DNA of 64,000 nt, taken from contig JBBHKE010000836.1 of the NCBI GenBank assembly GCA_037447655.1, forward strand, positions 582,626-646,625. Reading direction: 5' to 3'. Below are positions 37,805-63,835 of this stretch, piece by piece (position 1 is the stretch's first letter; each line of letters starts with the position of its first letter). The stretch is from Zygnema cylindricum (Eukaryota; Streptophyta; Zygnematophyceae; Zygnematales; Zygnemataceae). The translations under genes were made by a program, and so were the position numbers. A model generated the notes under the pieces. It saw only the letters and a program-made list of their open reading frames with translations. It was not told where the DNA came from and searched no databases.

Positions 37805-38513
37805 TGCTTTTGGAATCTCTAACAAGTCTCGTAGTCTTAACTCTCATATTCTTAAATCTCGTAGTCTTAATCCTCGTAGTCTTAACTCAGGTAGGTTTAA
37901 CTTGGTAATCTTAGCTTTAGTAGTCTTAACTATGGAAATCTTAGCTCTTGTAGTCTTAACTTTGGAAGTCTTAACTCTCGTATTCTTAATTCTCGTAGTC
38001 TTAACTATCGTAGTCTTAACTCCCGTAGTCTTAACTCTAGTAGACTTAACTCTCGTAGTCTTAACTCTCGTGGTCTTAACTCTTGTAGTCTTAACTCTCG
38101 TAGTCTTAACTCTCATAGTCTTGACTCTCGTAGTCTTAGCTAACGTAATCTTAGCTCTCGTAGTCTTAGCTTTTGTAGTCTTAACTCTCGTAGTCTTAAC
38201 TCTTGTAGTCTTAGCTCTCGTTGTCTTAGCTCTCGTAGTGTTAGCTCTCGTAGTCTAACTCTCGTAGTCTTAACTTTCGTAGTCTTTACTATCGTAGTTT
38301 TTACTCTCGTAGTCTTAGCTCTCGTAGTCTTTACTCTCGTAGTATTAACTCTTGTAGTCTTAACTTTTGTTGTCTTAACTCTGGAAGTCTTAACTCTTGT
38401 AGTCTTAACTCACCTAGGCTTAACTCTCGTAGTCTTAACTCTCGTAGTATTAACTCTGGTAGTCTTTACTCAGGTAGTCTTAACTCTTGTAGTCTTAACT
38501 CTCGTAGTCTTAA
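37805..38513. repeat. 15-bp minisatellite, left part
   Basis: About 45 diverged units of GTAGTCTTAACTCTC. As the unit is five codons long and one frame has no stop, it gives a long artificial ORF of (VVLTL)n, or (RVKTT)n on the other strand. The array stops at the start of LTR B and resumes at 51743. Confidence 0.95.
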
Positions 38514-39484
38514 TGTTGAAATATGAAATCTTTAGTTCAGTAGATAAGTCTGTGAGGGGAGACTAAGGACTTAGAATATTTTCCATCTTAGTTAGATATA
38601 ATTCTTACCTTTGATACTGTGAGAGTAGCACATAGACAGTAGAGTGTACTGTACTTTTGCAGGGACACGTGTCGACTGTTGAAGATGATGCATGTATTCA
38701 GGAGTGGGGGCGTCGACACCCACATATGCGTGTCACAAATCATATGGGCGGTTTCGGTGAATCGGACAAACAAAGATTAAACTGAACATTTGGAGGAGCA
38801 TTGTAAGAGATTGAAAAGAGATTGTTGATACAAACCAATTTAACGGATGCGAATAAAGTTTGTAGCACAATGACTAAGTGCGCCGTACGCACTTAGGATG
38901 TTTCGTACTAGTGATTAACATTTATCTGGACTTTTTTGACTAATGCTGAATAATCATCGGCAACATTAATTGCACGGATGGTATCTATAAATATCTAGAA
39001 AAATAATGGTTCGCGTTTAGTGCATTTGTAAATATAGTTACACTATCCATTTAGCGGCAAGTAGTAATTAGAGTTTTGGAGGTACCCACAGTAGAGTGAC
39101 ATACACATTGGATACTTTGTTGTAAGTTAATATAGTACTGTAGAACAGTAACCTAAATTAGTATTGAGTATATAATTTAGGACTTAGCGAAATTTGTGAT
39201 CATCTAGTCTAAAGATTAAGTTACCTAAAGGTAGTTTATGAGAAACTTGTAGAAACTATATCTTATGGTTGACCAAGTCAATTGGTGTGCAACTTTTAGA
39301 GTTGCCAGTACATTGTGTTTTGTGCTGTATTGATGAATTTGATTCAGTTTGGACTTGTGTATCACTTTCTGTATCAGCTGAAAGTTGGTTGTTGGGGAAG
39401 TTACTTGATTGCTTTTATTGACTAGATGTCTACTTCCACTACTACTACTGGTTCCCCTCCTGCAACGGTGGTTGTAGAACAATA
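38514..39484 (+). repeat. Copia B 5' LTR
   Basis: Begins TGTTGAAATATGAAATC and ends GTTGTAGAACAATA. The 3' copy at 50756 differs mainly at the first bases (TAAAG for TGTTG). It shares its CT-rich terminal segment with LTRs D and the fragments at 1-925 and 53056-53545. No tRNA-like unit is seen. Confidence 0.85.
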
Positions 39485-40711: not shown

Positions 40712-40781
40712 TGTATAAATTAATGGTCCATTTAAAGTATTTTATAGGTCTAAATAGAAATATAGAAAGAAGCCGAGGCAG

Positions 40782-40870
40782 TCTACCTCTAACTTCTCTC
40801 TCCAACTCTCAAACTTGTCGCAGTCACTAAGAAATTGGAGAGGGAGCGAGAGCCATGGCTACCTAGGCTA
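40782..40870 (+). other. Conserved fold-back with AGCCATGGCT palindrome
   Basis: TTCTCTCTCCAACTCT on the left side can pair with GGAGAGGGAGCGAG-like sequence on the right around a loop holding ACTTGTCGCAGTCACT. The 10-bp palindrome AGCCATGGCT follows. Same layout in F, G, K, O and the 57003 chimera. Confidence 0.6.
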
Positions 40871-40927
40871 TCCAGAGGTTTACGGGAAATATATATTAGA
40901 TAAGGGTTTATTTACTAAAAGGTATGT

Positions 40928-41025
40928 GCCGGCCACAAGATTTGATCCTAGTACCTGCCGGACGGCAGACACCCGGTAGCCGGTAGCCTTAGCCGTTAAG
41001 TCTTTAACTAGTGTTACGTAATATA
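40928..41025 (-). other. tRNA-like unit in Copia A 5' LTR
   Basis: Minus strand: AGACTTAACGGCTAAGGC (A-box region), then CCGGCAGGTACTAGGATCAAATC (B-box region GGATCAAATC). Antisense to the LTR. Confidence 0.65.
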
Positions 41026-41382
41026 TGGTTTGATATTTAATTAAGCATTCATACGTAGGATATTTCATTTAACTGAAACTCTTTACGAGAGACATAGATC
41101 AAGTAATGTAAAAGTACGGATTACGGTACGGATAAGAAACCAAAACCCCGCATTTATTTCTTTAGTGAAACGAATACCGCGCATGTATTTATTACGGCTA
41201 TGATTAAATGTGAATTTAATCGGACGGCCGAAATTAACACCGAGATCGCGGAAGAGGATTTCGGCAGTTTTTGATCATCGCCACATCCGATGACACCTGG
41301 CGAAATGACATTGGATTGCGGCATCTTTGAGGATCAAGGGAGCGAATCCGGACATACCACGTGTCGACATTTAGGCCATGTC

Positions 41383-41430
41383 GTACAGTGTCCGTACAGA
41401 AAGTACACCGGCAGCTGTACTTTTGTGTAC
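41383..41430 (+). promoter_or_regulatory. GTAC cluster, Copia A 5' LTR
   Basis: GTAC at 41383, 41394, 41403, 41417 and 41427, spaced 9-14 bp. The 3' LTR keeps four (46771, 46782, 46791, 46805). Confidence 0.5.
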
Positions 41431-41766
41431 GGAACTATAATAAGATTGGCTCTGTACATCAATAGATAGAGTCTGTGAGAGAGATAGGACTTAGAAAAAT
41501 TAGGAGATACGATCCTCTCTCCCAGAGAGCTTATGTACAAAAGGTCAACTTTGTCCCTCCATAACTTACTACTCAGGGGAGCAAATTCAGAGATTCTTTT
41601 TGCTATCAACTCAAGGGAGTCTTGCCTTTACAAGGGTGATAGTGGTCAGAGTTATTGTCTGCATGGGTGGCAGTTGTTTTTGCTGAAACACAAAAGGGTC
41701 AAGGTTATCCTAGAGGCTTCTTAGAAGCTGTCCACTCTGAGGACTTATGGAGGTCGCAGAGTTACA

Positions 41767-41781
41767 GGTTATGGGCCCACC
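41767..41781 (+). promoter_or_regulatory. Primer-binding site, Copia A (tRNA-iMet anticodon arm)
   Basis: GGTTATGGGCCCACC abuts the LTR end GAGTTACA. Complementary to the anticodon stem-loop of initiator tRNA-Met. The internal ATG (41771-41773) is in frame with gag. Confidence 0.88.
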
Positions 41782-43260
41782 CTCTAGGGTACCAATCTTG
41801 AATGGAACTGGATTCATATAATAGGAAAGTATGATGACAGGAGCTCTATGCGAAAAAAAGGTTTTGGGGGATAGTGAGTGGACGGTTGGGGCGTCCATAA
41901 GGTCTTTGAATCCCTCCAGGGTTTGGAGGAAGCAGATTCACCAGGGAAGAGGATCCACCTTCAACGGAGGAAACAAATGAAGGAGAGGTGGTGGACAAAG
42001 GAAAAGAGAAGGAGACGACCACACCAATAGCAACTGCTTCGGCATTTATGTCACCTATTCCGAGGAATAAGGAGAATGATACTGAAACCTGAGACTTCAA
42101 CAATATGGCGGCAAAGCACTTTATCCTACGCCATCTCACTCAAGGACTTGCATGTCCTCATTTGCAGGTAGAAAGGGCATCCGATCTTTGGATGGCTCTC
42201 ATAGAGATGTACCGAAGTGGTACGATTCAGCAACAACAGTTGGCTGATCAGAAAGTTAAGGAGTATGTATACAAAGGGGGGAAGATGTTGGATTTTTGCA
42301 ATGAGCTTGCTACACTCTTCATGGAGCTAAAGAGTGCGGGAAAAGATTTTAGTGAAAAAGAAAAGGTTAACTGTTTACTGATGAAGTTACCCGATGAGTT
42401 CGAGAACATAGTCAACCGTGTGCAGGACTTGCCGGACTCAAGGTGGATATGGAACTCAGTGGTAGGGATGATTCTCGTTCAAGAGAATACAATTGAGATC
42501 CGAAGGGGAGGAAAGAGTGGCCAAACCTTGGCAAGAGCGACTCATTGGAGGAACAGGGATTCCCGAAAACCGGTCGGAAACTATGGGGGTGGGGAGCACA
42601 AAAATCAGACCAACGACTTTGGACCAAGGGCTCTAAAAGGTTTATGTCATATTTGTAAGAAACGTGGGCACTATATGGCAGAGTGCACTAAGCTAACCGA
42701 GCTTCGGTTAAAGGAGGGGCAGACCGGTGGTACCCTGAGAGGAAAGAAAAAGGCCCTTGTGACACAAGTACATGAGGCGGAGTCCGAGGACGAGGACGAT
42801 GAGCTCCTTTTAGATGAGGAGTTGGAGGCAAAAAACGAGGTCGAAATTCCACGAAGGCAGAAATGTGCTTACGGTGGATTGAAAGGTGAAGCACGCTCGA
42901 TTGTAGATTCGGGTGCCTCCGTGCACATGTGTAAGGATAGGCACCTGTTCACTAAGATAAGAAAGATTCCCACCATTGAGATAGAGTACGGGGATGGGAG
43001 GATAGTCACCACTACTTTTGAAGGATCGGTAGATTTGAAAGCGTTGTGGAAGGAAAGACATCCATAGTAACATTCTCCGATGTATTGTTTATTCCGGAGC
43101 TGAACAAAAACCTCATCTCTACATCTGTATTAGATGATAAGGGTTTTTTTACTAGCACTAGAGAAGGAGTCTTTACTGCTAGTTTTGAGGAGGATGTCTA
43201 TTTCATTGCTGAGAAAGATGTTTAGGCTGATTTTAAGTAATGAAACAAAGAAACTTTACT
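41771..43260 (+). pseudogene. Copia A: gag and protease
   Basis: Gag opens at the primer-site ATG (MGPPSRVPILNGTGFI), then meets stops at 41819-41824 and a frame change. The main frame is 42105-43067, starting MAAKHFILRHLTQGLACPH. It holds the UBN2 body (LMKLPDEFENIVNRVQDLPD), basic linker, zinc knuckle CHICKKRGHYMAEC (about 42648-42690), an acidic stretch (ESEDEDDELLLDEELE), and the protease triad in IVDSGASVHMCKD. A frameshift near 43040 throws off the C-terminal half (FIPELNKNLISTSVLDDKGF). It is the most complete gag-PR in the window. Confidence 0.92.
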
Positions 43261-43282
43261 ATACTGGTGTTCATGATATTTA

Positions 43283-44360
43283 ATGTGGCATAAGAGGCTT
43301 GAGCATGTGAATCTAGATAAGTTAAGAGAGATGAAAAAGATGGGAGTGGTGGAAGGGATTCAGTTCAGTGAGAGTGATAATATAAGTGATTGTAGTGGAT
43401 GTGCTCAAGGTAAAGCACACAGATTACCCTTTCCTAAAACAGCCACCTATAAGGGAGAAAAACTTCTAGATCTAGTACACACAGATATTTGGGGACCGGC
43501 TAGAGTGCCCTCACCAAGGGGGAAGAGATTTATGATGACTATAACTGATGATTGGTCTCGGTATTCCCGAGTGTATTTTTTGAAAAACAAGTCAGAAGCT
43601 CAAGATTGTTTTAGACAATATAAAGCATGGAGCGAAAAACTCCATGAAACTCCAATCAAGAGAATACGGAGTGACAATGGTGGAGAGTATACTTCTAACC
43701 TGTTTGAGGATTTTTTGAGGGAAGATGGGGTCCAACACCAAAAGACAGTTCCAAAAAATCTGGAACAGAATGGGGTATCTGAAAGGTTAAATAGAACACT
43801 AAGTGATAGTGCTAGAAGTATGTTGTCAAATAAGAAGATAGAAAAAAGGTTTTGGGCAGAAGCAATGAACTGTGCTAATTACCTCAAAAATAGAGTTCTT
43901 ACTTCAGCTAGAAAAGATCAAACGCCTTATGAGAGATGGACAGGCCGCAAACTAGACATATCTCACTTAAAGGTTTTCGGTAGTCAAGTATTCAGTCTAG
44001 ATACAGATCGGTATAATTGGTAGCTAGATCGTAAAGGAAAACCGGGATACTTATTAGGATATGATCAGGATGTTAAAGGATATAGAGTTTACGATCTAAA
44101 AAGAGAAGATATAATCTTAGTAAAGCATCTAGTAGTTATGGATGAAGGAAAGTTTGTTGATCCTTTCAAGTATAGAAAGTCAGTAAAAATCAGATTTGAG
44201 TCAGAAAATTCAAATGACTTTGAGCTTCCTAACTATCCAGGTTTTAGAGAATATGACATTCTTGCAGGTACAAATCAGACCGAAAAGGACTCGGCTGTGG
44301 AAACTCTAGTGAAAACTCTTCCCGAAGCAGAAGACGTGGTGGAAATTGATTCGAAATAAA
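43283..44360 (+). pseudogene. Copia A: integrase and linker
   Basis: MWHKRLEHVNLDKLREMKK with DCSGCAQGKAHRLPF is the pre-integrase finger (the usual Gly-His is Glu-His). The core is complete: ITDDWSRYSR, RSDNGGEYTS and NGVSERLNRT carry the Asp-Asp-Glu triad with 35 residues between the last two. The frame stays open to 44023. A TAG stands where sister elements have Lys. 44138-44359 continues as the C-terminal linker (KHLVVMDEGKFVDPFKYRK). The catalytic core itself could be intact. Confidence 0.92.
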
Positions 44361-46093
44361 AGAATAGGGGAGAAGCTGAGTTTGTTCGAAAGAATCCACG
44401 AGAACCATCTATTCCGGCCTCAGATTTTAAGGGGGGAAGGAGAAATAGCAAAAGACTGCAAGAAAAATAGGTTAATAACAAGGTAACTAAACTATCTCAT
44501 CAAGATGAACCTCAAACTTATGGAGAGGCAATGACTTGTCTAGAAAGAAACCGGTGGAAGACAGCCATCAATGAGGAGATGGCATCAATTATGGCAGCCG
44601 ATACTTAGAAGCTGGTGGATTGTCCACCTAACTGAAAACCAATCGGTTGTCAGTGGGTTTTCAAATTAAAACTGAACCCAGATAACACAATTGAGCACTA
44701 CAAGGCCCGACTAGTGGCAAAGGGATTTACACAAAAGGAGGGAATGGACTACGAGGAAACCTTTGCCCCGGTGGTCAGATTTCCCTCCGTCCGCATACTT
44801 TTCAGACTGGCAGCAGCAAAAGACATGGAAGTGCACCAGATGGACATCAAGACAACCTTTTTGCATGGAGAATTGGAAAAGGAGATCTTCATGCGACAAC
44901 CCGAAGGGTTTCTGGAGGAAGGAGAGGAGAGTTATGTATGCCGGCTGATTAAATCTCTTTATGGTTTGAAACAGGCGCCTCGACAGTGGAATAAGAAACT
45001 TGATGAGTTTCTTACCGGTCTGGGATATATCCAGATTAGCTCAGATCACTCAATCTATGTTTTCAAAGATGAGGAAGGTTTTATATTTATTGCAATTTAT
45101 GTTGATGATTTGCTTGTTTTAAGTAAATCAATGGAAAAAATAAATAAATTGAAATCCGATCTTAAGAGTAGATTTCAAATGAAGGATATGGGGGAAGCAA
45201 AATATATTTTGGGAATTCAAGTAGAAAGAGACCGAAAAAGAAAGATTATAAGATTGACTCAAAAGGAAGCAATAGGGAACATGCTTGAAAATTTTCAAAT
45301 GGATAAAGCTTATAGTTGTACAACTCTAATGGAGTTAAAGAAGGGAAGTGAGGGAAGTGAGGATGAAGGAGTCATAGTCTTGGACGAGGAATTATCTCCT
45401 GAAGAACAGAATTTCATGCATACTATTCCTTACAGGCAAGTAGTGGTAAGTCTAATCTATTTTATGAATTGTACCCGGCCGGATTTAGCTGCAGCTGTAA
45501 GAGTGCTGAGTAGAAGTCTAAATGCTCCCACTAAGAAGGATTGGGAGGCAGCTAAGAGAGTCCTTAGATATTTGATAGGAACTAGGGATCTATGGTTGCA
45601 TTTGGGTGGGGAGAATACTAACATCACTACTTGGAGTGATGCCAGTTATGGTGATGCTCCGATGAGGAGATGCACTTCTGGAAAAGTATTATATGTGGGT
45701 GATGGGGCTTGCTGTTGGAGTAGGAAACAACAAAATGTTATTGCTCGGTCCACCATGGAGGCTGAGTATATGGCCTCTTGCTCTGCTGTAAAAGAATTGA
45801 TGTGGGTCAAGTCTTTGCTTGGTGAGCTTGGTCACCTTAAGAGTGGTGTGCACAAAATGTTTTGTGATAATCAGGCAGCAATCGCTATTTCTGCCAATCC
45901 TAAACATCATTTTAAAGCCAAACACATGGACATCAGACTCAGCTTTGTTAGAGAAAAAGTAGAAAACAAAATAATCAGTTTAGAGTACAGACCAGATAGT
46001 GAGATGGTAGCAGATATGATGACCAAACCTGTGCCTTCCCCTAAGCTAATTTTTTGCAGGGAGAAGTGTGGTCTGAAATTAAAGATTGACTAG
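44361..46093 (+). pseudogene. Copia A: RT and RNase H
   Basis: 44361-44713 has linker and RT N-terminus with stops at former Gln (EK*VNN), Trp (ADT*KLVD) and Arg (PPN*KPIG) codons. From 44714 a single 459-codon frame runs to the end: [46 protein letters not shown], the catalytic IYVDDLLVLS, IQVERDRKRKIIRLTQKEA, NCTRPDLAAAVRVLSRSL, and RNase H TTWSDASYGDAPMRR, MFCDNQAAIAI, ADMMTKPVPSPKLIFCREK. Ends KLKID, stop at 46091-46093. RT core and RNase H look intact. Confidence 0.95.
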
Positions 46094-46106
46094 AAAATAA
46101 GGGGAG

Positions 46107-47154
46107 TGTAGAAACTAATGGTTTTAAAGTATTTTCTAGGTCTGAAAAGAAATAAAGAAGCCGAGGCAGTCTATCTCTAACTTCTCTCTCCAACTCTCAA
46201 ACTTGTCGCAGTCACTGAGAAATTGGAGAGGAAGCTAGAGCCATGGCTACCTAGGCTATCTAGAGGTTTATGGGAAATATATATTAGTTAGGGGTTTATT
46301 TACTAAAAGGTATGTGACGGCCACAAGATTTGATCCTAGTACCTACCGGACGCAAGGCAGCCGGTAGCCGGTAGCCTTAGCCGTTAGGTCTTTAACTAGT
46401 GTTACGTTATATATGGTTTAATATTTAGTTAAACATTCATACGTAGGATAGGTCATTTAACTGAAACTGTTTACGGGAGACATAGATCTAGTAATGTAAA
46501 AGTACGGATTACGGTACAGATAAGAAGCCAATACCGCGCATTTATTTCTTTAGTGAAACGAATATCGCGCATGGATTTATTACGGCTACGATTAAATGTG
46601 AATTTAATAGGACGGCCGGAATTAACGCCAAGATTGCGGAAGAGGATTTTGGTGGTTTTTGGTCATCGCCACATTGGATGACACGTTGCCGAATGACATT
46701 GGATCGCGGCATCTCCGAGGATTAAGGGAGCGAATCCGAACATACCACCTTTCGACATTTAGGCCATGTCGTACAGTGTTCGTACAGAAAGTACACCGGC
46801 AGCTGTACTTTTGTGTATGGAACTGTAATCTGATAGGCTCCGTACATCAGTAGATAGAGTATGTGAGAGAGATAGGACTTAGAAGAATTAGGAGATAGGA
46901 CACTCTCTCCCAGAGAGCTTCTGTACAAAAGGTCAACTTTGACCCTCCATAACTTACTGCTCAGGGGAGCAAATTCAGAGATTCTTTTTGCTATCGACTC
47001 AAGGGATTCTTGCCTTTAGAGGGGTGATGGTGGTTAGAGAAATTGTCTACCAAGGTGGCAGTTGTTTTTGCTGAAAAACAAAGGGGTCAGGGTTATCCTA
47101 GAGGCTTCTTGGAAGATGTCCGCTCTGAGGACTTATGGAGGTCTTGGAGTTACA
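46107..47154 (+). repeat. Copia A 3' LTR
   Basis: TGTAGAAACTAATGG...GGAGTTACA directly after the purine tract. It mirrors the 5' copy, with the tRNA-like unit at about 46316-46410 (minus) and hairpins GGTCA-ACTT-TGACC and TGCTC-AGGG-GAGCA intact near 46930-46975. Followed by the GCTAT duplication. Confidence 0.93.
46316..46410 (-). other. tRNA-like unit in Copia A 3' LTR
   Basis: Same A- and B-box words as in the 5' LTR, except that the segment between them has a small rearrangement (CGCAAGGCAGCC in place of CGGCAGACACCC on the plus strand). Confidence 0.65.
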
Positions 47155-48963
47155 GCTATTAGCAAGAAAGGGAAAGTAGCAATAATAAGAATTAGAGATG
47201 ATAGCAAAATGTACCAGATCGACGTGGTTGAATATAAAGAAAATGATATTCTCTACTCCAATGTCCTGTCTGTTAATGAGCAATCTCATAAAAGATTAGG
47301 ACATATGAATTATGTTAGTCTAAAGAAAATAGTGAATTCGGGACAAGTTGATGGAGTTTCTCTCACATCTCATCCTATAAAATCATGTGATGGTTGTTCA
47401 CTTGGCAAGATCCACAAATTGCTATTTCCATAGGAAACAAACCACGGAGCGGAAAAAGTTATGTAACTCATACAGGCTGATGTTCTCGGACCTTCACAAG
47501 TGCCATCGACTTCAGGTTTCCACTTTATGGTTACATTCACAGATGACTACTTATGGTAAATCAAATTTTAGTTCATGTAGCATAAGAGTGAAGTGTTTAC
47601 TCACTTCAAACAATACAAAGCGTGGGCGGAAAAGCTTCACGGAGTTCAAATCTTGGCACTCAGATTGGATAATGATGGAGAATGCACATCAAAAGAATTT
47701 GAACAGTTCCTTATTCAAGAAGGTATAAGTCATAATCTTACGATTCCTTATACATCAGAAAAGATAGGTGTATTTGAAAGATTAAATAGGATAGTGACAG
47801 AAAGTGCTCGGTCCATGCTTGCAGATAAAGGCTAGATCTGAAATTTTAGGCTGAAGCGATTAACTACGCAGTTTACATTAAGAATAGAATTGCTTCAACA
47901 TCAGTTAGTACTACACCATATGAGCTATGGACAAGAGAAAATCTAGATTTTAGTTATTTTAAGGTCTTTGGCAGCAAGCGTTTCATTCTCCATACATCAT
48001 AGGATAGATGGAAAATGAAAGCTAAGAGCTTATCGGGCATTTTCATGGGGTATGATGACAATGAAAAAAGCTATAGAGTGTTTGTATTTGATGAAAAGAA
48101 AAGTGATTATCTATAATAATATCCAAATTAAAGATGAACAGGATTCAATTGACTTATTCAAGGTGACAAGCCAACAAGAAAAAGGGAAAGACTAGGAGTA
48201 TGTCATATTTCACCATACACAACGAGTTTCCTTCCCACATACAAGTGAAACACCTTTTCACTCGGTTCCCCTGGTGAATCCATAGCATACTTCCAAACAC
48301 TTTCCAACTCAGGCGGAGCCAGTTGTTACATGATCAGAACCAACATAGGTCACGTTTCAAAAAAGGCAGAAAAATTCCAAACTGCCATCGATTTCAGTTC
48401 GGAATTTCCTGGGGGAAGGAGATCTAGCAGCCGGTTGCAAGCAAATTCTCACTTTGCTTTTTTGTTGCTACAGAGGAGCCTCTAACTATTCAAGGGGGCT
48501 GTTTATCACCTAAGACAAATCAGTGGATCAAGGCGGCAAACGATGAAATGAAGTCTATTATGGAGGCACAAACATGGCAACTGGTGGATCTTCCTCCGGG
48601 TAGAAAAGCCATCGGCCACAAATGGGTATTCAAGGTGAAGGTGAACCGCGACGACACCATTAAAAGGTATAAGGCCAAACAAGTGGCCAAAGGGTACAAT
48701 AGAAATGAAGGTACTAACTTTGAAGAAACCTTCGTTCCAGTTGTTAGATTTCCTACTCTCAGAATTTTGCTAAGTCTAGCAGCTATAGAGAATATAGAAA
48801 TACATCAAATGGATGTTAAAACTTCTTGCATAGAGAGTTAGAGGGAACCATTTACATGAAGCAACCTGATATATATGTAGAAAAAGGAAAGGAAGAATTA
48901 GTGTGTAAACTGCTGAAATCTTTGTATGGGCTGAAACAAGCACCTAGAGAATGGAATTTGAAG
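47155..48963 (+). pseudogene. Copia B: pre-integrase, integrase, RT start
   Basis: Resumes after element A with ISKKGKVAIIRIRDDSKMYQ. The pre-integrase finger is HKRLGHMNYVSLKK plus CDGCSLGKIHKL. Integrase is broken (TDDY near 47540, LRLDNDGECT, GVFERLNR at 47770). The linker 47850-48540 has many stops. RT starts at 48548 ([45 protein letters not shown]) with a shift near 48835, then SLYGLKQAP. It is cut at 48963 by the solo LTR. Confidence 0.85.
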
Positions 48964-51742: not shown

Positions 51743-52103
51743 GTTAACTCTCGTATTCTTAACTTTTGTATTCTTAACTCTCGTATTCTTAACTCTCGGA
51801 GTCTTCACTCGCGTAGTCTTAACTCTTGTAGTCTTAGCTCTCGTAGTGTTAGCTCTCGTAGTCTTAGCTCCTGTAGTTTTAGCTCTTATATTCTTAACTC
51901 TCGTAGTCTTCACTCTTGTAGTCTTAACTCTTGTAATCTTAGCTCGCGTAGTCTTAACTCTTGTAGTCTTAACTCTCGTAGTCTTAACTCAGGTAGTTTT
52001 AACTCTTGTAGTCTTTACTCTCGTACACTTAACTTTTGTAGTCTTAACTCTCGTAGTCTTTACACTTGTAGGCTAAACTCTCGTAGTCTTAACTGTCGTA
52101 GTC
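51743..52103. repeat. 15-bp minisatellite, right part
   Basis: Same GTAGTCTTAACTCTC unit as 37805-38513, about 24 units, ending at the left edge of LTR K. Confidence 0.95.
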
Positions 52104-53055
52104 TGCAACTCTGAGACCTCCATTGGTCCTCAGAGTATGCAGCTCACACGAAGCCCCTAGGATAGCCCTGACCCTTTTGAGTTTCAACAAGAATAAATGC
52201 CACCTTCGCAGATGAAACCGCTGACCACCTTCACTCCTGTGAAGAGAAGACTCCCCTGAGTCAATAGCAAAAAGTATCTACGAATTTTCTCCAACAGTAA
52301 GTTATAAAGGTAAAAAATGACCTATGGTACAGGAGCTCTCTCAGAAAGAGACGGCTACCCAAAATTTGTTGAGGCCTAATCCCCTTTCTAAACCCTCGAC
52401 TACTGGTATAGATCCAATAAAAACACTATACACTACAGAAAATTACTCGAGCCGAGGTACTTTTTGTACTGCCATTTTACGACATGGCCATTCCATGGAC
52501 GCTTATCATATCCGAACTTGTCCTCATACTTTTCGGAGATTCCGCAATCCAATGTGATGCTATCACGTGTCATTTGGTGAGTGAATGACCACAAATCGCC
52601 AAAAAGTCCATTCCGCGTATTCATCGCTCACCATGGCCTTCTGATTCAGGTCGGCTTTTAATATAAGCCGTCGAACTAAATGTACGCCTCATTTTTTTTG
52701 TATGACATTTATTGTACAACGAGGTTCTATGCACTTAAGTCTGTTGCGTCTGTTAAATGAAATGTTCATCTCGTAAATATTTAAATAGTTGTAAAACCCT
52801 ATGTATCTCAAAATAAGTCCAATACTATTGGGCAAAGCTACTAGATACCGGCCAATTTGACGAATAGAGGGTACCTGGATCAAATCTTGGATCCGGCAGC
52901 CTTTTTGGTAAGGATGACTTGCTTTGCAGTATATCTCTTTCAAAGGCTTAGGCAGCCATGGCTCAAACTCCCTCTCTGGTCTTCTGTAACTACGACAAGT
53001 GTAAAAACTTGAGAGAGAGGAGTTGGAGGTAGGCTGCTTCAACTTCTTTTATTTT
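52104..53055 (-). repeat. LTR K, Copia, solo or truncated
   Basis: The minus strand ends ...GGAGGTCTCAGAGTTGCA at 52104, as in F. It contains the hairpin zone, GTAC words near 52465 and 52475, an antisense tRNA-like unit, and GCAGCCATGGCTC at about 52951-52965. No coding sequence is attached. The right limit is blurred against the next LTR. Confidence 0.7.
52830..52905 (+). other. tRNA-like unit in LTR K
   Basis: ATTGGGCAAAGCTACTAG (A-box region) and GGTACCTGGATCAAATCTTGG (B-box region). Antisense to the LTR. Confidence 0.6.
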
Positions 53056-53545
53056 TTTTGTTCTACAACCACTAGAGTAGGGGGTGAAGCAACTGTAGTA
53101 GTAGAAATAGACATAATTCACTTCACATAAGCTAACCAAGAATCCTACCAAACAGCTGTTTTTTACAGCTCACTAAATCTGACACAGTTTTCCAAACTGC
53201 TTCAAACTATGCCATAGTATAGAATATCACAAAGACTAACAACTCCCAAAGTTTCTACCGAATTGATTCAGCATACACCAAGATATACAACTCAAAGGTT
53301 CCCAAAAACAGTCAACAGATTACACAGTCTGGAAGTCTGGGTACATAAAATGTTCTACGTTCTAAGTCTTATACTCGTAGTGAGTTTCTTATCCTAGTTG
53401 TCTTTTAACATAGTTATGTACCTCAAATACAAGTGTTCTTCAGAGATAGGTCTAAAAACCAAAGTGCCACTAAGATCTAAGTACTCTTAATCACGCTAAA
53501 GTTAATCTATCAGTGTACAATCAATATTACTGAGAGATCACCACT
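53056..53545 (-). repeat. B/D-type LTR fragment, antisense
   Basis: The minus strand resembles the last 480 bp of the D 3' and B LTRs: ATGTCTATTTCTACTACTAC then GTGGTTGTAGAAC at its end, and CTTTGGGAGTTGTTAG inside. It is joined directly to the methyltransferase codons of Gypsy N at about 53545, so that element lost its 5' side here. Confidence 0.65.
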
Positions 53546-53547
53546 AA

Positions 53548-54533
53548 GTGATTGTGCAATTAATTGACGTCGACTTTCATGTGGAAGCTATTTTAAAGGT
53601 GGGATATAAGGTGGAAACATATTTAGCTATAGAGATCTCTCCCAAGGCCCGCGTAGTCAAGAACACCGCCTCAACCAGCTCCACCAACTCTACCCTCGGC
53701 AGCTTCGAGTGTCTACATTCTCAAACGCTCACTGGAGTCTTCCCCATAACGTGGAAAACATCATGACACCTCATCTAGCCAATCTGGGGAGAGTAGACTT
53801 AGTAGTGGCAGATTGACCTTGTCAGGGATACTCCCTTGCACGACAAGGAAAATGACATCGACACAGTAGAAGCAAAACATTTTTTCAGATGATCCAATTA
53901 ATCTCGTGGATACAGCAGCTCTAGGACACACTAGTGGGATACGCTTTGGAGAATGTCAACCCCGAAGATGATAAACGGAAACAGGTTGCTGAAATCTACA
54001 ATCTTGTGACCCAGATTTTAGGAGCTCCATTTGTTTTTGATGCAACACAGATGGGATCATAAGCGCATCGAGTTAGGGTGTATTGGACCAATATGATCCC
54101 GCTTCCCTTCCTCCGGCAACTCTTAGATAAGGAGATCCCTAACCTCCAAAATTTTGTGCAGCACATCCTTAGGGAAGGACGGATGGCAGCACCCGTGGCC
54201 AAACCAAACCGCTCCCCTTTTCTTTGGTGCAACAGACCAAGATTCCCACGAAAATCACTCCCCACTTTGGTTATCTTTTCTCACAGCCTCGCCTATTGGA
54301 AAGGAGTAGTAGGAATGATCTTTGATAGCAAGCGAAGAATCTATAAAACACCAACAATCGCAGGACGGGAATAGGCAATGGGATTCCATAAGAAACCACG
54401 GCCGGACTAGGTATTTCAAACCCCTAAAGGTGTAATTGGGCAAAGTATGGATTTAAAAGCAATCACATGGGTGCTCAAGCTTGCTCTTGCCTTTTCTAGT
54501 CTCCAGTCCCCAAAATCTTGGGCTATTTATCTT
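53548..54533 (+). pseudogene. Cytosine-5 DNA methyltransferase carried by a Gypsy element
   Basis: About 320 codons with the ordered C5-methyltransferase motifs. The motif I flank is VEAILKVGYKV (53581-53613); the Gly-rich loop before it is missing or decayed. After one frameshift near 53665 all others share one frame. Motif IV PCQGYSLARQG (53817 on) has the catalytic Cys. Motif VI is ALENVN (ENV at 53949-53957), and motif VIII is AHRVRVYWTN (54063-54092). The late motifs are FSHSLAYWKGVVGMI, GRE*AMGF (54363-54386) and GQSMDL (54438-54455). The order is canonical, not the permuted order of plant DRM enzymes. In-frame stops (e.g. TGA 53814, TAA 54060, TAG 54372) inactivate it. It lies directly upstream of Gypsy RT in the same orientation, so it was a pol domain and not a host gene. 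The subfamily is unclear. Confidence 0.85.
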
Positions 54534-55600
54534 TAAGCTCCTCCGATTTTGGCAATGCAAGGAACTTTGTAACTTGAGGGGGTGAGAGAAAGGAGAAGGA
54601 GAAAAATTAACATTCCACACTTGCGGGTTTTCCGTGTAGGGTGGAGTGGCGGCTCAAATAATGACAACTTAGTGGAAGTTGTCAAGAGTAGTGTTCTAGT
54701 AGGAAGGGTAGAGGCCGACCCACAGGTATGGTTGGAATTCGACATCAACCTTTGGGAAGACCACCGAAAGCTTGGGCAGCTGTCGAGCCTGGGAAAATGG
54801 ATTGGACCTTAGGGGAGCAGTTGGACCCTCAGCAAAAGGCCCGGCTCTACAAACTATTGGAAAAAGACAAACTGGTGTTCTCATGGTCAGAAATTTATGT
54901 CGGCATCTAAAAAGGAACCTCTTTCCGAATCGATTTGATCGACAAGACGACTACTGTTTGGCAGAAGCAGTATCCTCTCAACTTCAAGTAGAAGGTATTC
55001 ATCACGGCTAAAGTTGAAACTTTGGTGGAAGCTGGATTGGTTCACGAATGTACAAGACTCCGTGAGTTCACTTCCTTGACAGTTCTCCCTCCCAAGAAAG
55101 ACTCTTCCAAAAAAGCTGTAGATTTCTGAATGTGTGGGGATTATCGCATGCTGAACACGACCACCATTCTGGGCCAGTATCTCATGCCGACCCCGGAAGA
55201 GATATTCGACTCTCTTGTTGGTGCCACCATCTACTCCACTCTAAACATGAAAAACGGATTTCACTAGATTGTCATGGAACCAAAGCATTGGGAGAGAACA
55301 ACATTTTTGGCAGGCTTTAGACGGTATGAGTGGATTTACATGCCCTTTAAGCTGAAGAATACATTGGCCAAATTCCAACAAGCAATGGAGGAAGCTCTCC
55401 AAGGAATCAATTGTGCTCTGTGTTATAATGATGATGTCATTATCTTCTCCAAGAACTTTGAGGAGCACTTGGAGCATGTCCAGATCGTCCTTCGGGCACT
55501 CCAAGCAGCGGGCTTGAAATGTCAGTTGGGCAAGTGAATTTTTAAAGTACAGAAAAAATTACATTGGACATGAAGTCACCCTTAAGATAGTGGGTCCCTA
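54534..55600 (+). pseudogene. Gypsy N: reverse transcriptase
   Basis: Downstream of the methyltransferase. The RT lead-in is LDPQQKARLYKLLEKDKLVFS (two segments, 54728-54910), then TLVEAGLVHECTR and VLPPKKD, and CGDYRMLNT. The palm motif reads STLNMKNGFH, with Asn where Asp is usual. FAGFRRYEWIYMPFKLKNTLAKFQQAME follows, then CYNDDVIIFSKN at the catalytic site (Tyr-Asn-Asp-Asp in place of Tyr-Ile/Val-Asp-Asp). Stops at 54908, near 55128 and 55267, and after CQLGK (55537). The domain order methyltransferase-RT-RNase H is unusual for Gypsy. Confidence 0.88.
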
Positions 55601-56255
55601 CATGGTCAAGGTGGTAGCCCTTGACGCTCTTCCACCCCCGTAGGACATCTTGGCCCATTCGCACATTCTTAGGCTTACCCAACTACTATTAGCCATTTAT
55701 CCTAGAGTTCAGTAGTCATATCCAGCCCCTCAATCAATAATTGTAAAAGGACTAAGAATGGTAGTGTGCTAAAGAGCAACAGATCGCCTTCCAGTTCTTG
55801 AAGGATGCTCAAAAGAAGCACTACGTGCTCCGGATGCGTGATCACTAGGGGCCTTTCCTCCTTTATACTGATTGGACTAAGTTTGGATTGGGGGCAATTT
55901 TGACTCAAGTAGACGACGCCGGGGCTGAGTATGTGGTGGCTTTCACCAGCCAAAGTAATAACCGAACGGAGGGAAATTACAGCAGTGAACATGGATAACT
56001 CTTCGTTGCTGTTTCGGCAATTTAGCATTTCCGACCCTATTTGTACGGGGTCCATTTCACGCTTATCACCAACCAACAACCCTTGAAATGGATCATGGAA
56101 AATAAAAAGTTAATTGGAAAACTCCACAGATGGGTTTTTATCCTACAGGAATATGATTTCAGCATTATTCACCAGGCAGGAGAATTCCACGCGAATGCCG
56201 ACGGACTTAGCCCAAATCGCAATCCCTCCCCCTTGAATTCTACCGGGGCTCAACA
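55601..56255 (+). pseudogene. Gypsy N: RNase H
   Basis: FLKDAQKKHYVLRMRDH leads to LYTDWTKFGLGAILTQ (first Asp), then NNRTEGNYSSEHG (Glu), and FTLITNQQPLKWIMENKKL with the last Asp region near HANADGLSP (56041-56210 frame). Several stops. No integrase follows; at about 56256 the sequence changes to a Copia RT-RNase H relic. Confidence 0.82.
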
Positions 56256-56257
56256 CG

Positions 56258-57002
56258 ATGAGGACCCAAAAATCAGTTTGGGACTCAAACTCGGAACCAA
56301 TCAGTTTGGGAAATAGAAAACTGGTTGGAAAGGGAGACTTCAACGGATTTGGAGGAAAGGGGAGAAGTAAAACAAGACGGGATTTTAAAGGATGGGGGAG
56401 AAAAGAAATAATTAATGAAAAGTTTAGGGGAGGAGAAATACTCTTTGAGAATCATTATAGAAAGTGACAGCGGAAAGAATTCCATGGGAGAGAGTGAGGA
56501 AAGTTCAAAAAATTGGGTGAGTATCATGGATAAAACTATGAGCTCGGAAGATGTAGATTTTATGAGGAAATTAGTGGGGACTCTTGATATAACGATAAAT
56601 TTGGGGGGTAATGGTTTTGACATCACTAATGGGAGTGATGACATTTATGGTGGTGTGCCTGTGAAAGGGTTACCATCTGGGTGTGTGTCGCAGATTGGGG
56701 ATGGGGCTAGTTTTTTGAATTGCAAGAGGGAAATCGGATTCTGTGTGGATGGAAAAGAGATGAGTGGGATAAAATCTTTGCTTGGATTTATGGAAATTTG
56801 TATGCTAAATAAAATATGTGATCAGCAAGATGGAATGTTTATTTCAGCTCATCTAATGGACCTTTTAAAATACAAGAGTATTCACTTAAAGTTTTATGAG
56901 GAGAAAAGAAAGAGGAAAAAGAAAAGAAGGAAAAAAAAATAATATGATATATATATTTTTTAGTGGGAGTTGAAAAGAAAGTAGACTAGAAAATAAGGGG
57001 AG
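56258..57002 (+). pseudogene. Copia R: degenerate RT-RNase H tail
   Basis: Reading 56415-56942: SIMDKTMSSEDVDFM matches the ...EEKEFM segment before IPYRQ, but it then jumps to RKLVGTLDITINLGG, so the IPYRQ...NCTRPD block is deleted. RNase H is eroded: TNGSDDIYGGVPVKG for SDASYGD, QIGDGASFLNCKRE for GACCWSSK, and MNKICDQQ for FCDNQAA. It ends in a Lys/Arg run. The purine tract AAAATAAGGGGAG (56990-57002) and an LTR follow. A copy of the 56643-56805 part lies inverted at the right edge of the window. Confidence 0.8.
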
Positions 57003-57194
57003 TGTTGAAATTTATGTATTTTCTAGGTCTGTATTAAAAAAAAAAATAGAGTAAGTCAGCAAAGGCGACCTGCTTCTCGCTCAAATCTCTCCGGTCCCCA
57101 TACTTGTTGCAGTCACTGAAGACCAGAGAGAGAGCTAGAGCCATGGCTATCTAAAGAGGATAGGCTAATTCGTAGTTTGTACCAAAATGTGTAT

Positions 57195-57270
57195 ACCGGA
57201 TCCAGAAATTGATCCTAGTACCTACATCCTTAATAGACGTTAGCTTTAGCCTATAGCTTATTGTCAACGT
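57195..57270 (-). other. tRNA-like unit 1 of the chimeric LTR
   Basis: Minus strand: CTATAGGCTAAAGC (A-box region) then GTAGGTACTAGGATCAATTTC (B-box region). A-type. Confidence 0.6.
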
Positions 57271-57349
57271 AGCATACATAGGGTACAATAGGTATTTATA
57301 AATGTACAAGATGAGAATTCTAACTAACTAACAAATAACCAAAAACTGC

Positions 57350-57415
57350 TCTACACTAGATTTGAACTGGTTTATGGTTATATTTGTAGAGGTATGCCTT
57401 ATCCACTAAGGCGTT
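57350..57415 (-). other. tRNA-like unit 2 of the chimeric LTR
   Basis: Minus strand: CCTTAGTGGATAAGGC (A-box region) then CCAGTTCAAATCTAG (B-box region). C-type, close to 49642-49699. Confidence 0.68.
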
Positions 57416-58033
57416 GACGAAACGATACACATGACGGGTATCAAAGGTATATAAACGTTAACGCAACAGCTAATTAACGGAAGACTAACGAAAAGGAGCA
57501 ATTCATGCATGTACGCGAATCTGAACCGTGTAAAATATGTTTTGATCGGACGGCCGCCATTGTAGCCGCCACGCGAAGTGAGCTTTTGGCGGCATTCGGA
57601 GATAGCGTCACGCGGTGCCACGTGGCACCATAATATTTGATACCGGAGAAGATGGGAGGAGGAACCATGGCTTCCGATTTCACAGGTGTCACCTTGAAGA
57701 CCATGTCGTACAATGGTCGTATAATAAGTACATCTCCTATTGTACCTTCTTGTACTATATAGTGTTCCTCTTGGACTAGGGTTTAGTAGTAAGTAGTCGT
57801 GAGTAGGCAGACCAAGACTTAGTGATATTTAGGTACCTCTCTCTAAGAGAACTTGTAACCATAAAGGTCATCTTTGACCAACCATAACTTAATGCTCGGG
57901 TGAGCAAATTCAGTGATTCTTTTTGCTGCGGACTCAAGGGAATCCAAGCTACACACGGGTGTAGTCGGTTAGAGTCTTTGCGTGCCAGGGTGACACTTAT
58001 TCAGTGGGAAATTCAAAGTGGGGAATATTGTCC

Positions 58034-58515
58034 AAAACACATATTCAAGCTTTGCATTCAATGGTGGAACTGAGCACATAGAAGGTCTTCTCTTCACAGG
58101 GGTAAAAGTGTATTGAGGTTCTTATTGTCAAGGGATCATTTTTTTGGGTTTATATCAACTTGGAGTCGGCACTATCTAGATTAGCTTCTTTTGGATCTGC
58201 GAATTCTGTGGGCAATGGAGCCCATAGAATTCAGTAGTTAGAGGTCTTATTAACACTATGTAAGATGCAGCAGTGAAAATGAAAAAGGATGATAAATCTA
58301 GCAAGACACTTCAGTTAGCAATTGAAACTCTGAGACCTCCATTGGCCCTTAGAGTATGCAGATCCCAAAGAAGCTAATCTAGATAGTGCCAAATCCAAGT
58401 TGATATAAACCCAAATGACTGACCCCTTGACAGTCACAACCCCAATATAGATTCACCCCTGTGAAATAACACTTTCTATGTGCTCAGTTCCACCACAGAA
58501 TGCAAAGTTAGAATA
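58034..58515. repeat. Inverted repeat of about 160 bp joining two LTR ends
   Basis: 58034-58200 (with TTCAAGCTTTGCATTC..., GTGGAACTGAGCACATAGAA, GTTTATATCAACTTGGA, AGATTAGCTTCTTT) is repeated in inverted, diverged form at 58365-58515. The arms lie in the U5 regions of the chimeric LTR (+) and solo LTR O (-), separated by about 165 bp holding LTR ends and a gag scrap. Confidence 0.8.
58240..58322 (+). pseudogene. Copia L gag fragment, left of solo LTR O
   Basis: 58264-58322 reads DAAVKMKKDDKSSKTLQLAI, in frame with the continuation at 59511 (IILDEESTSKVV) once LTR O and one copy of GCAAT are set aside. The same region of element B gag reads KSHDKASWSFQLAYNLILEE. Confidence 0.7.
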
Positions 58516-59510: not shown

Positions 59511-60330
59511 CAATATTATATTAGATGAGGAATCTACATCTAAGGTCGTTAATGGAGAAAAGTAAGCAGAGGCTTTTAATACAGATTTTGACACAAGAGG
59601 TCAATTTAATCAGCCCAAGAAATTGTTTAATCCACAAAGGAATCAGTTTAATCAGAATTAAAGTCAATTTAATATGTTTAATCAAGTCCCGAATAAACAA
59701 TTCTTTGTTGTATGCTTTTACTGTTCAGAGAAAAGCCATGGATACTGGTACTGCCTTAAGCCTAGAAAGGCTAATGAGACAGGTTTATGTTAGCCAAGTT
59801 GGCAGCAGAGCCAATTTAACCAGGGCTTCTCTAGAAATCAGCTGCAAAACAATTCCTTGTTATCATCTTATGTAACTAAAGAGGATGAGTCTTTGAGCTC
59901 AATGAGCACGATGAATTGGATCTATTTTTTATGGTGGCAGCGATAAAGGGCTCAAAAGACGGTGGATGGATCATCGACACTAGGGCATCAACCCACATGT
60001 GCTGGAACAAGTTGGTATTTATAAATCTAAAGGCAACACCTACAAAGAATATCTACTATGTGTACGGCATGAGTCTCCAAACATCTGCTCAGGGTGATGT
60101 GTCTTTGATGGTAGATGTAGGAGGAAAGTCAATTGAAAGGACACTTCACAATGTTTTGTATGTTCTACACTTTTAGAAAAATATGTTTTCTACTTCTTTA
60201 GTTGAAAGCGAAGACTTTGAAGTCACCCTTAAAGGGGGTAGGAAGGTTCTCAATAAGTTAGGCAAAGTAGCTGTCACACGAACTAGAGATGAGAGCAAAA
60301 TGTATCGCATGGATATGAGGGCAGCGCAGC
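59511..60330 (+). pseudogene. Copia L: gag end and protease
   Basis: The gag continuation is Gln/Asn/Phe rich (FNQPKKLFNPQRNQFNQN). The zinc knuckle is intact, CFYCSEKSHGYWYC (about 59711-59752). Protease is at 59916-60176: WIIDTRASTHMCWN, with the active-site Gly replaced by Arg. The flap region is SLQTSAQGDVSLMVDVGG, and ERTLHNVLYVLHF matches element B. 60183-60300 continues FEVTLKGGRKV...RDESKMYRMD. At about 60320 the Copia frame ends and Gypsy M sequence begins, with no LTR between them. Confidence 0.86.
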
Positions 60331-60439
60331 TAGCTTCATGGTCAACTCCAGTGCGTCGGGGAATTTCATCAACGAGAAAACGGAAAGAAGTTGAAGCTTC
60401 CTCTCGTGGCTATTTAGGACATCTAGTCGGCCGAGTATA

Positions 60440-62220
60440 GTTGGCCGATTGCAGTTCTCTTTGGATCACTCATCGTACACCTTGGTTACGTGTCAGTATG
60501 GGGAGTTTCCACTAGTACGAGATGCTCCACAAATCACCTCTAAGAGACCATGAGGTAATCTTGGGGAAGCCATGGCTCTAGAAATGGAACCAGACAATTG
60601 ATTAGAGGACCAACAGTATGAGAGTGAAGAAAGGTGAAACAGAGTTTGCACTAAATGCGGGAGCGGCGGGTAAAGGCGTGGAAGAGGGATGTCTGCTTCC
60701 ATCTTTACCACTTAAGAGGGGACTAAGTAAAGGGGAAACAATTACAATTGTTGTCGTGCGACTTGTGGAGGAGGTAAAGGAGGGGATCCTAGAAGAGTGG
60801 TCGAAGAAAGATCCGGACTTTAACACCAAAAGAGGTAACGATATAGGAGAGGTTTCCGTTGAGGCCCTGGAAGCCATTGCAAAGCTTCTCGAGGAGTATG
60901 TCGATGTTTTTCCCCCAAAGCTCTCAGAAGGTTTTCCTCTTAAAGGCAACGTGGACCACAAGGTCGAGCTCATTCCCGTGCCTGTACCCTTGGCCAACAG
61001 GATGTATAAAACAAGCTACACCGAGTTGGTTGAGCTCAAGAAACAGCTCTCCAAATTAGTAGAGGTCGAAGCTATTGAGCTGAGTAAGTCACCGTTTGGA
61101 GCCCCCGTCCTCTTTGTGACCAAGAATGATGGGAGCCTACGTATGTGTGTGGACTATTGAACGTTGAACAAGCTAACAATCAAGAATGCGTACCCCCTCC
61201 CAAGGATAGATGAACTGTTAGACCGGTTAGGAGGTGCTCAATACTTTCATAAGATAGATTTACGCAGTGGATACCACCAGATTAGAGTAACGGAAGTTGA
61301 TGTAGAGAAGACTGCATTCAGGTACAGGACTGTAGGGTCATTTACAGTTTTTGGTAATGATATTTGGGTTGACTAATGCACCGGCTACCTTTGTGCACTT
61401 AATGAGTTTTATCTTCAGGCAGCATCTGGATGCGTTTGTTATAGTCTTCTTAGATGACATTTTAGTGTATAGTGAAACGTTAGAAGAACATGTCAAGCAT
61501 CTAAGAACCGTGTTATATATCTTAAGAGAAAATTAGTTGTACGCTAAGTTGAGTAAATGTGAGTTCATAAAAGAAAAGTTAGAGTTTTTAGGCCATGTGG
61601 TTGATCACAATAGAATCGCAATGGACCCCAACAAAATTAAGGCAGTCAAGGAGTGGCTGCAACCGAAAAACGTCACGGAGCTAAGGAGATTTCTTGGACT
61701 ATGCTCCTACTACCGAAGATTCGTGGGAGGCTTTAAAGTTGAATACCCTACGGAGCTGCTCAAAAATGATGTGCCTTATGAGTGGAAGCAAGGGCAAGAG
61801 GCAGCCTTTAGCACGCTAAAAGAGCGGTTGGTTACCTCCCCTGTATTAGCTGTCCTCGACACATCTTTACCTAGGACAGTGATCACCGATGCCAGTGATA
61901 CAACTATTGGAGCGATCCTTATGCAGGACCATGAAAAATGTCTTCAACCTATTGCCTACAACAGTCGAAAACTGAAAGCAACATAACCCAACTAGGCAAC
62001 TCATGAGAAGGAGACTATAGCTATCATTAAAACGTTGGAGGTTTGGAAGTGTTATATCCAAGGGAAGCGTGTCACTATGATCACTGACCACCATGAGCTA
62101 CAGTATCTACAAAAGCAACAAAAATTGTTAAAGAAGCAAGCCAGATGGATGACCTTGCTAAAGATATTCGAAACCAGAGCTAACAATAAAGTAAAAGTCA
62201 TGCAAGACAAACCTTATTGA
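60440..62220 (+). pseudogene. Gypsy M (chromovirus): PR end, RT, RNase H
   Basis: The protease C-terminal strand VILGKPWL is at about 60556-60582. The RT lead-in is LEEYVDVFPPKLSEGFP with RTD-type HKVELIPVPVPLANRMYKTS (60618-61160). The RT core follows: [76 protein letters not shown] with the catalytic Asp-Asp, [17 protein letters not shown]. RNase H has [37 protein letters not shown] and VTMITDHHELQYL. Stops at 61158-61160, 61534-61536 and 61984-61986 plus a frame change near 61350. Better preserved than Gypsy N and of a different lineage. Confidence 0.93.
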
Positions 62221-62399
62221 TGCTCTTTCAAGAAGGCAAGGCATTGCTGAACCAACGAAGGGGTCCATACCGTTGCCACCGCAAGATTGTAGCAATGGTG
62301 CCTTTGAGAAATCAAAATCGCAACCATCGCAAGACCGCAACAATAATACCAAGGAGGCGAGTAGTGAAGTGGCCGACAAGAATCAGGACCAAAAAGTCA

Positions 62400-63480
62400 G
62401 CGCAGTGACAAGTAAGATGAAAGTTGACGAGCATTGGTTAGACGGAATCAAAGTTGCATACGAGGAGGAAGATATGATCAAGGAGCTGGTCAAGAAGAAA
62501 ATCCTAGTTAAGACTGCCAACGGCATGTGGCGATACAAACTAAGTCAGACAACCCGCTTTTAAGTTCCAACTAATCAAGAGTTACGACATATGATCCTCC
62601 AAATGAGTCATGACGAACCCTTCAGCAGACAATTTGGGCGAGACAAAACAACCACACGAGTGGCTGAGACATACTACTGGCCCAATATGACGAAGGAAAT
62701 TGTTGAGTTAGTCAAAAATTGTGACTCCTGTAACAGAAACAAATTGGATCAGGGTCATCAAGGGCTTTTGCAACCTCTGCCGACAACATCCGCTATTTGG
62801 GAGGCGACCTAAATAGATTTCGTTGTCGCTCTTCTGATGACTCTAGAGGGCTAGGATTCCATATTTGTCATCGTAGACCACCTTACAAAGATGGTTCACT
62901 TTCTCCCTACGAAGACCACTGCTACAACTCGAGATATAGTATAGCATTTCTTTCGAGAAGTATTCCGTCACCATGGACTCCCAAAAAAGGTCGTGAGTGA
63001 TAGAGACAGATATTCCATCAGCCAGTTTTGGAAAAGTGTGTTCTTAATATGTGGGAAACAGTTAGCTATGTCCACTAAGTACCGCACTCAGACGGATGGT
63101 CAGACCGAAAGAGTGAATATGACATTGGATGAGGCCTTACGCGATTATGTGTCGGTACACCAAACAGGCTAGGTTAACAATTTAATAGCAATCGAAGTGA
63201 CGTACAACAGTGCCATGCACTCATCTACTAATGCTACACCCTTCTCACTCAATGGACAAAATCCCATCCTTCCCAAAAATCTACTAGCCACCAAGTGCCC
63301 AACACGTGCCGTGAGAGACTTTGTAAAACAGCTTCATACGAATTTGGAAAACGCAACAAGGGCCCTTTAAAGTGCAAAAAAATGTCAGAAAGTGTAGTCT
63401 GATACTAAGAGGAGGGACGTTGCGTTCAAGGTTGGAGACAAGGTCCGATTAAAGATGAAAAATTGTCTCTACTGTGCTCT
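62400..63480 (+). pseudogene. Gypsy M: integrase
   Basis: HHCC finger: LRHMILQMSHDE...H and CDSCNRNKLDQG (62591-62812), with TRVAETYYWPNM between. The core carries Asp in IDFVVAL (near 62815), Asp in SDRDRYSISQFW (about 62995-63030) and Glu in QTDGQTERVN (63089-63118), the DDE triad. Downstream is YNSAMHSSTNATPFSLNG and the FKVGDKVRLKMKN strand of the GPY/F-type C-terminal region (63425-63465). Many stops and shifts. Confidence 0.9.
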
Positions 63481-63689
63481 CTTTCCCCAAAATTGGCACT
63501 AAAGTTTACAAGACCATTCACCGTCATCTCCGGGATAAACGAGGTGGCTTACAAGCTCGATATTCCTTAGGCCTTGGAAATACATGATGTGTTCCATGTT
63601 TCACTCCTTAAACCGTTCCGAGACCCTAATTCATTGTTCCCTAATCGACTCCAGCAAACCTTACTTCCACCAATTTAAGGTACCCAAGA

Positions 63690-63835
63690 TGAGTACGAGG
63701 TTGAGAATATTCTACAATCTCGCCTGCTAACCCGTGGAAATTCCCAAACTGCTTAGTATTTGGTTCGGTGGAAAGGTTATGGCGTTGAGGATGATATTTG
63801 GGTGGATGAGGAAGATGCTGATCACAAATTTTAGT
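63690..63835 (+). pseudogene. Gypsy M: chromodomain
   Basis: Frame from 63687: DEYEVENILQSRLLTR, then a TAG at a former Gln codon, then YLVRWKGYGVEDDIWV-DEEDADHKF and stop. The E-V-E-x-I-L start, the Y-L-V-R-W-K-G-Y core and the W of D-x-x-W/I-W-V match chromodomains at the C-terminus of chromovirus integrases, which steer integration to modified chromatin. The aromatic cage positions Y (first strand) and W (RWKGY) are visible. Confidence 0.88.

Follow-up and report, generated by a model that had tools for sequence, protein, structure and literature searches.

Since DNA methylation is usually directed at transposons, elements that carry a methylase of their own turn the usual story round. The closest described system is KnitGypsy-Dnmt3 of Klebsormidium nitens, a Gypsy element with DIRS-like repeats that encodes a DNMT3 within its Pol (de Mendoza et al., 2018, PMC5890265). 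According to the main text of that paper, its methyltransferase (MT) is under purifying selection, and the published activity test of the Klebsormidium enzyme in yeast was inconclusive (PMC5890265). The same text describes SymbioDIRS-Dnmt3 of Symbiodinium, a DIRS-like element with a tyrosine recombinase, and the statement in the initial annotation of the locus studied here, namely that retrotransposon-borne methyltransferases have been reported from charophytes and dinoflagellates, is correct as far as this text goes (PMC5890265). A paper of 2019, whose passage on methylase-bearing transposons treats them by way of citing the 2018 study, states that they are absent from land plants (PMC6338049), a view to be revisited should the present host prove to be a land plant; a survey of 2025, in a passage with the same citation, mentions DNMT3 in streptophyte retrotransposons and speaks of LTR Copia and DIRS (PMC12344493). 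In the open-access literature, at the level of titles and the beginnings of abstracts, we found no further primary account of a DNMT carried by a Gypsy element, nor any Gypsy element that has both a DNMT and a PHD finger. Chromodomain Gypsy elements (chromoviruses) have a chromatin-reader domain behind the integrase.

The locus described here lies in a 64-kb window (the whole stretch of DNA that was analysed). It is very probably a truncated and decayed copy of a Ty3/Gypsy element whose Pol carries a DNMT3-type MT directly before the reverse transcriptase (RT), an arrangement seen in its relatives. The Gypsy fragment extends over about 53480-56400 of the window and is bordered on both sides by Copia-type sequence, with the following features:

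53058..53473, minus strand: Copia-type fragment forming the left border of the Gypsy fragment (window self-comparison)
53557..53760, plus strand: N-terminal part of the MT (motif I region), no stops in 68 codons, frame differing from that of the remainder
53763..54509, plus strand: main part of the MT, DNMT3-type C5 (motifs IV, VI, VIII, IX and X), six in-frame stops
54510..54790, plus strand: MT-RT linker, by eye like the linker of the unbroken relative L014
54800..55561, plus strand: Ty3/Gypsy RT, decayed (RVT_1 1.2e-13; Ty3 RT 1e-23)
55771..56211, plus strand: Ty3/Gypsy RNase H, decayed and in the third frame (RT_RNaseH 1.1e-26; Ty3 3.5e-15)
56402..58083, plus strand: end of a Copia RNase H and an LTR-like repeat, forming the right border (self-comparison; protein-level similarity to the Copia pol of the window, 1e-15)

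In frame translation, the MT (53557-54509, plus strand) is decayed and has its motifs in canonical order. The motifs quoted in the initial annotation are present at the place and on the strand it gave, and its range of 53548..54533 is right. From motif IV onward the motifs share the main frame, and the motif I part lies in another. Between 53763 and 54533, the main frame has its six stops; the other two frames have 17 and 15, and shuffled sequences 14.1 +/- 3.6. A methylase profile search, which the annotation had put forward as a check, did return a match: Pfam DNA_methylase scored just below its cut-off of 22 with the main part (E=2.3e-4, 21.1 bits) and just above it with the N-terminal frame prefixed (1.0e-4, 22.3 bits). 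The NCBIfam dcm model (2.8e-6; at 27.2 bits well short of its cut-off, 100.65) and a phage MT family profile (3.9e-6) matched as well. The top PDB chain was DNMT3A (0.0054), and a further comparison again placed catalytic-domain chains of DNMT3C, DNMT3A and DNMT3B at the top (0.00049-0.0059). Five of ten control sequences were scanned with the profiles (one reversed, four of nine shuffled) and gave no methylase match, the reversed one producing an unrelated match to Exportin-5 (0.066). Neither the motif I piece nor the motif IX/X piece gave a methylase match by itself in profile searches; both assignments in the window are by-eye alignments with unbroken genome copies such as L014, with which 53557..53760 aligns. 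A single-sequence structure model (pLDDT 33.9) was set aside. Six in-frame stops and one change of frame interrupt its MT, and the window copy is dead and cannot make the enzyme.

Downstream of the MT, Ty3 is the best match of both the RT and the RNase H. The MT-to-RT gap is 257 nt, with both parts on the plus strand, and the codon statistics of the linker show no clear frame. Between 50 and 60 kb of the window the search found neither an integrase nor a PHD part belonging to the Gypsy element, nor was any gag, protease or terminal repeat of it recognised at this copy. The main MT part, used as query, found no further MT copy in the 64-kb window, and Rfam at gathering cut-offs gave no match.

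Other repeats share the window. A Copia element at 40712-47155 (plus strand) has long open pol frames, and its long terminal repeats agree at 90% over about 1.05 kb. When a Copia RT of the window was compared with the protein collection, relatives were found at 36-46% (best 120), and the sources named by organism are green plants, including Closterium. At 60300-63800 there is another Gypsy element, in which profiles identify RT and RNase H and an integrase is recognised by eye; no MT was seen in it, and its C-terminal end is chromodomain-like by eye. Finally, a 15-bp minisatellite found at 51744-52112 and 37790-38531 adjoins the same Copia-like segment, on opposite sides of it.

The architecture can be read from relatives in the same genome. 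Twenty stretches were fetched, these being the top 20 of 123 Pfam methylase matches. The element MT is present in 19 of them, with an RT just downstream in 17 (partial in L011 and L026), an integrase in 13 and a PHD part in 11, and the MT-RT gap in 17 relatives is up to 369 nt. Two stretches, L009 and L025, have the MT without an RT. L015, likewise without RT, is an exon of a chromomethylase-like host gene: its best structures are 9mvy, 7ubu and 4fsx (1.3e-28), the last of which we take to be a maize chromomethylase, followed by a group named DNMT1 (1e-12). One stretch, L020, holds two MT-RT copies on one strand within 10 kb.

The unbroken relatives include L014 and L023. In L014, one open frame of 1520 aa comprises MT, RT, RNase H, H2C2 and rve integrase together with a C-terminal PHD that scores weakly (0.0044, under the cut-off). 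In L023, one open frame of 2395 aa runs from a zinc knuckle (0.0086, below cut-off) through MT, RT, RNase H, H2C2 and rve to a PHD (1.5e-9), and this PHD part matches PHD-finger structures at best with 3.6e-16. Integrase catalytic residues and the YIDD of the RT are recognisable by eye in the relatives. Their predicted polyprotein joins the MT to the replication enzymes. In L027, the frame preceding the MT has an aspartyl protease match (0.0014, below cut-off); the 715-aa frame upstream of the L014 pol has no profile match. The initial annotation had proposed that, within a Gypsy pol, a C5 MT of canonical, non-DRM motif order directly precedes the RT. The relatives have this arrangement genome-wide, with unbroken MT-RT frames in L014 and L023. 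It had also placed the MT behind the gag and protease side; the order in the relatives bears this out, with gag and protease profile matches that fall below cut-off. A 5743-aa open frame at C961 was rejected as an artefact, as it runs into an N stretch (2491 N in L031).

The ends of the element were studied at L023, where the repeats are ordered A1 (931 bp)-coding-B1-A2-B2, with B of about 243 bp. The A copies are 100% identical and the B copies 99.6%. The outer ends read TGTC...GACA, and the flanks CTTGG and TTTGG give a hint of a 5-bp target duplication in which one position is mismatched. Such DIRS-like split direct repeats are present at one family B copy, L023/L030. At L014, the only family A locus examined for repeats, A1 and A2 are 97.8% alike and B copies are found too; this locus is rearranged and contains about 3.7 kb of additional DNA.

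Among the aligned MTs, family A copies share 92-100% residue identity. A second branch (L011, L026) is 56-60% identical to family A, and family B (L013, L023, L024) 38-42%. Because the order of MT and RT is the same in both families, the data fit one DNMT3 capture before families A and B split. All 12 aligned copies, which come from both families, keep the catalytic Cys, the motif VI E-N and the motif VIII arginines unchanged. In motif IV, family A keeps PCQ, while in all three aligned family B copies Glu replaces the Pro before the catalytic Cys (ECQGMS). Nei-Gojobori dN/dS was calculated from 12 MT and seven RT sequences, which leave few pairs, and the decayed window copy was excluded. For unsaturated pairs with dS above 0.05, dN/dS is 0.12-0.41 for the MT in family A, 0.10 for the MT of L011/L026, and 0.06-0.32 for the RT. 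Near-identical pairs carry little information (L009/L010 0.74, L023/L024 0.32), and comparisons between families are saturated, with L013/L026 giving 0.32 at a dS of 2.2. These values suggest purifying selection on both MT and RT. The CpG observed/expected ratio is 0.56 for the window fragment, 0.61 for the whole window, 0.63 for the L014 pol, 0.64 for L027, 0.89 for L023 and 0.71 over the 20 fetched stretches, so a CpG depletion of the elements is not clear.

This last result, together with the ECQGMS of family B, would suit an MT that is kept, at any rate in family B, for binding DNA or RNA and not for methylation. Such a role is unlikely in view of the invariant catalytic Cys, E-N and motif VIII arginines and of the PCQ retained in family A, both of which speak for a catalytic MT.

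The kind of MT was addressed with a profile built from the 12 copies and compared with PDB chains. DNMT3A (1.9e-20) and DNMT3B (2.4e-18) lead, and other kinds follow with 3g7u (9.2e-9), M.HhaI (3.6e-8), 4onj (7.3e-7; presumably tobacco DRM), DNMT2 (9.1e-7), DRM2 (9.4e-7) and DNMT1 (0.0055). DRM enzymes have a rearranged motif order according to the main text of PMC5890265. In the element MT, motif I precedes IV, VI and VIII in one direction (by eye), which is not the DRM-type order. The element could instead have acquired a bacterial or phage Dcm-type methylase in place of a eukaryotic DNMT3. Its motif IV is PCQGYS, the window piece matches the dcm and phage profiles named above with E-values no worse than those of DNMT3 structures in another database, and tblastn finds a Croceibacter phage MT (2e-6, 24% identity, 86% covered). 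Moreover, the DNMT3A match of the 12-copy profile depends on motifs IV-VIII; the segment with motif I contributes 13.2 bits, and the IX-X segment, with 2.3 bits, is no evidence alone. Against this stands the distance in the 12-copy profile between DNMT3A and the best other chain, 3g7u, or M.HhaI, and we regard a Dcm-type origin as quite improbable. The element MT is accordingly classified as DNMT3-type by its profile, the support coming from motifs IV-VIII.

That the MT and the RT belong together was examined over the whole genome (352.8 Mb, 2689 contigs). The Pfam methylase model gave at least 123 scored places (782 candidates). The window MT as query gave at least 150 (1467 candidates), with 51-68% identity to 149 others, and the window RT likewise at least 150 (2888 candidates), with 64-78% identity to 149 others. 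Some copies may represent alternative haplotypes, as the MT is identical in L016/L017 and in L027/L028. Linkage was judged by coordinates from the best 150 MT matches, the best 150 RT matches and the Pfam places (122 of 123). For at least 68 of the best 150 MT matches, an RT match lies 934-1118 nt downstream (start to start). Conversely, at least 77 of the best 150 RT matches have an MT or Pfam methylase match within 3 kb upstream; among these 150, an MT match lies on the opposite strand in none and downstream within 3 kb in two. A listed RT match is found downstream at 31 or more of the 122 Pfam places. From the best 100 RT matches, 30 lie on contigs without a listed MT match, and 20 of these were fetched. 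Within 2 kb upstream, all except one (L044) have an MT in the same orientation, and these 19 MTs are at least 900 nt long in 11 cases and shorter than 500 nt in seven. Because of these pairing counts, the association of MT and RT is not due to chance. A host DNMT3 gene, or a retrocopy of one, that decayed beside a Gypsy element by accident, for which one could cite that the MT and RT frames differ in the window and that no unbroken polyprotein remains there, is therefore extremely improbable given the near-constant spacing of the 68 or more pairs, the unbroken joint frames of relatives and the MT upstream at 19 of 20 sampled RT matches; the genome-wide linkage speaks against the chance joining that the initial annotation had named as its own refutation. 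Outside this genome, the window MT found no relatives in the protein collection (0 of 247 and 0 of 1365 candidates), and no confirmed relative came from viral_contigs with the MT (three stretches) or the RT (five stretches), or from genome_contigs with the RT (64 stretches).

For the DNMT3-bearing Gypsy element, working copies would make the MT within Gag-Pol, and the enzyme would travel with the replication enzymes. Its methylation targets may be CG sites in the cDNA of the element itself or in DNA close to the insertion, and the C-terminal PHD finger behind the integrase may read histone H3 and steer insertion. Methylation of its own DNA or a change in host silencing, as supposed in the initial annotation, would be possible for working copies. 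As a whole, this mechanism is plausible yet falls somewhat short of probable. With many copies, some of them unbroken, the host would allow two questions to be tested: do these elements methylate their own DNA or that of the host, and do a methylation writer and a histone reader move as a pair?

How does the element compare with the known systems? Like KnitGypsy-Dnmt3 in its published description, the relatives have a non-rearranged DNMT3-type MT in a Gypsy Pol, a DIRS-like repeat order (at L023) and suggested purifying selection on the MT. In L014 and L023, the MT shares the Pol frame with RT, RNase H and integrase, as in elements of that type, whereas the window copy has broken frames and no integrase found between 50 and 60 kb. 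Since the relatives show these features, the window element is assigned to the KnitGypsy-Dnmt3-type elements. SymbioDIRS-Dnmt3, as described in the same paper, shares with the relatives here the DNMT3 in Pol and the split direct repeats (seen at L023); unlike in that element, the relatives' integrase is of the rve type and the window RT is closest to Ty3. The Ty3/Gypsy placement thus combines an RT and RNase H closest to Ty3 in the window with an rve integrase in the relatives only. The chromatin reader behind the integrase resembles that of chromoviruses, with a PHD replacing the chromodomain and an MT in addition.

The kind of element has already been described from Klebsormidium, in the text cited, and is hence not wholly new. 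GRAS genes point to a host among the Zygnematophyceae or land plants and not to Klebsormidium: the window's genome has 27 matches (best 4.7e-54) and the 14 control genomes none, and plant GRAS factors, by the account in Feng et al. (2024, PMC11096116), go back to the ancestor that Zygnematophyceae and land plants have in common. It is possible, though less likely than not, that a single ancient DNMT3 capture founded a Gypsy lineage persisting across streptophytes, at least from Klebsormidium to a zygnematophyte/land-plant host, with DNMT3 writer and PHD reader as a portable chromatin module. Set against the description of KnitGypsy-Dnmt3, there are here at least 150 scored MT places and, among the fetched copies, two deeply diverged families, and the motif IV Glu of family B may be a further difference. 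So may the C-terminal PHD, the main text of PMC5890265 being without the words "PHD" and "zinc finger". Relative to that text, the host clade, the two diverged families, the PHD finger and the family B Glu are new, and the Gypsy form of the DNMT3 element is extended beyond Klebsormidium, as far as the literature covered goes.
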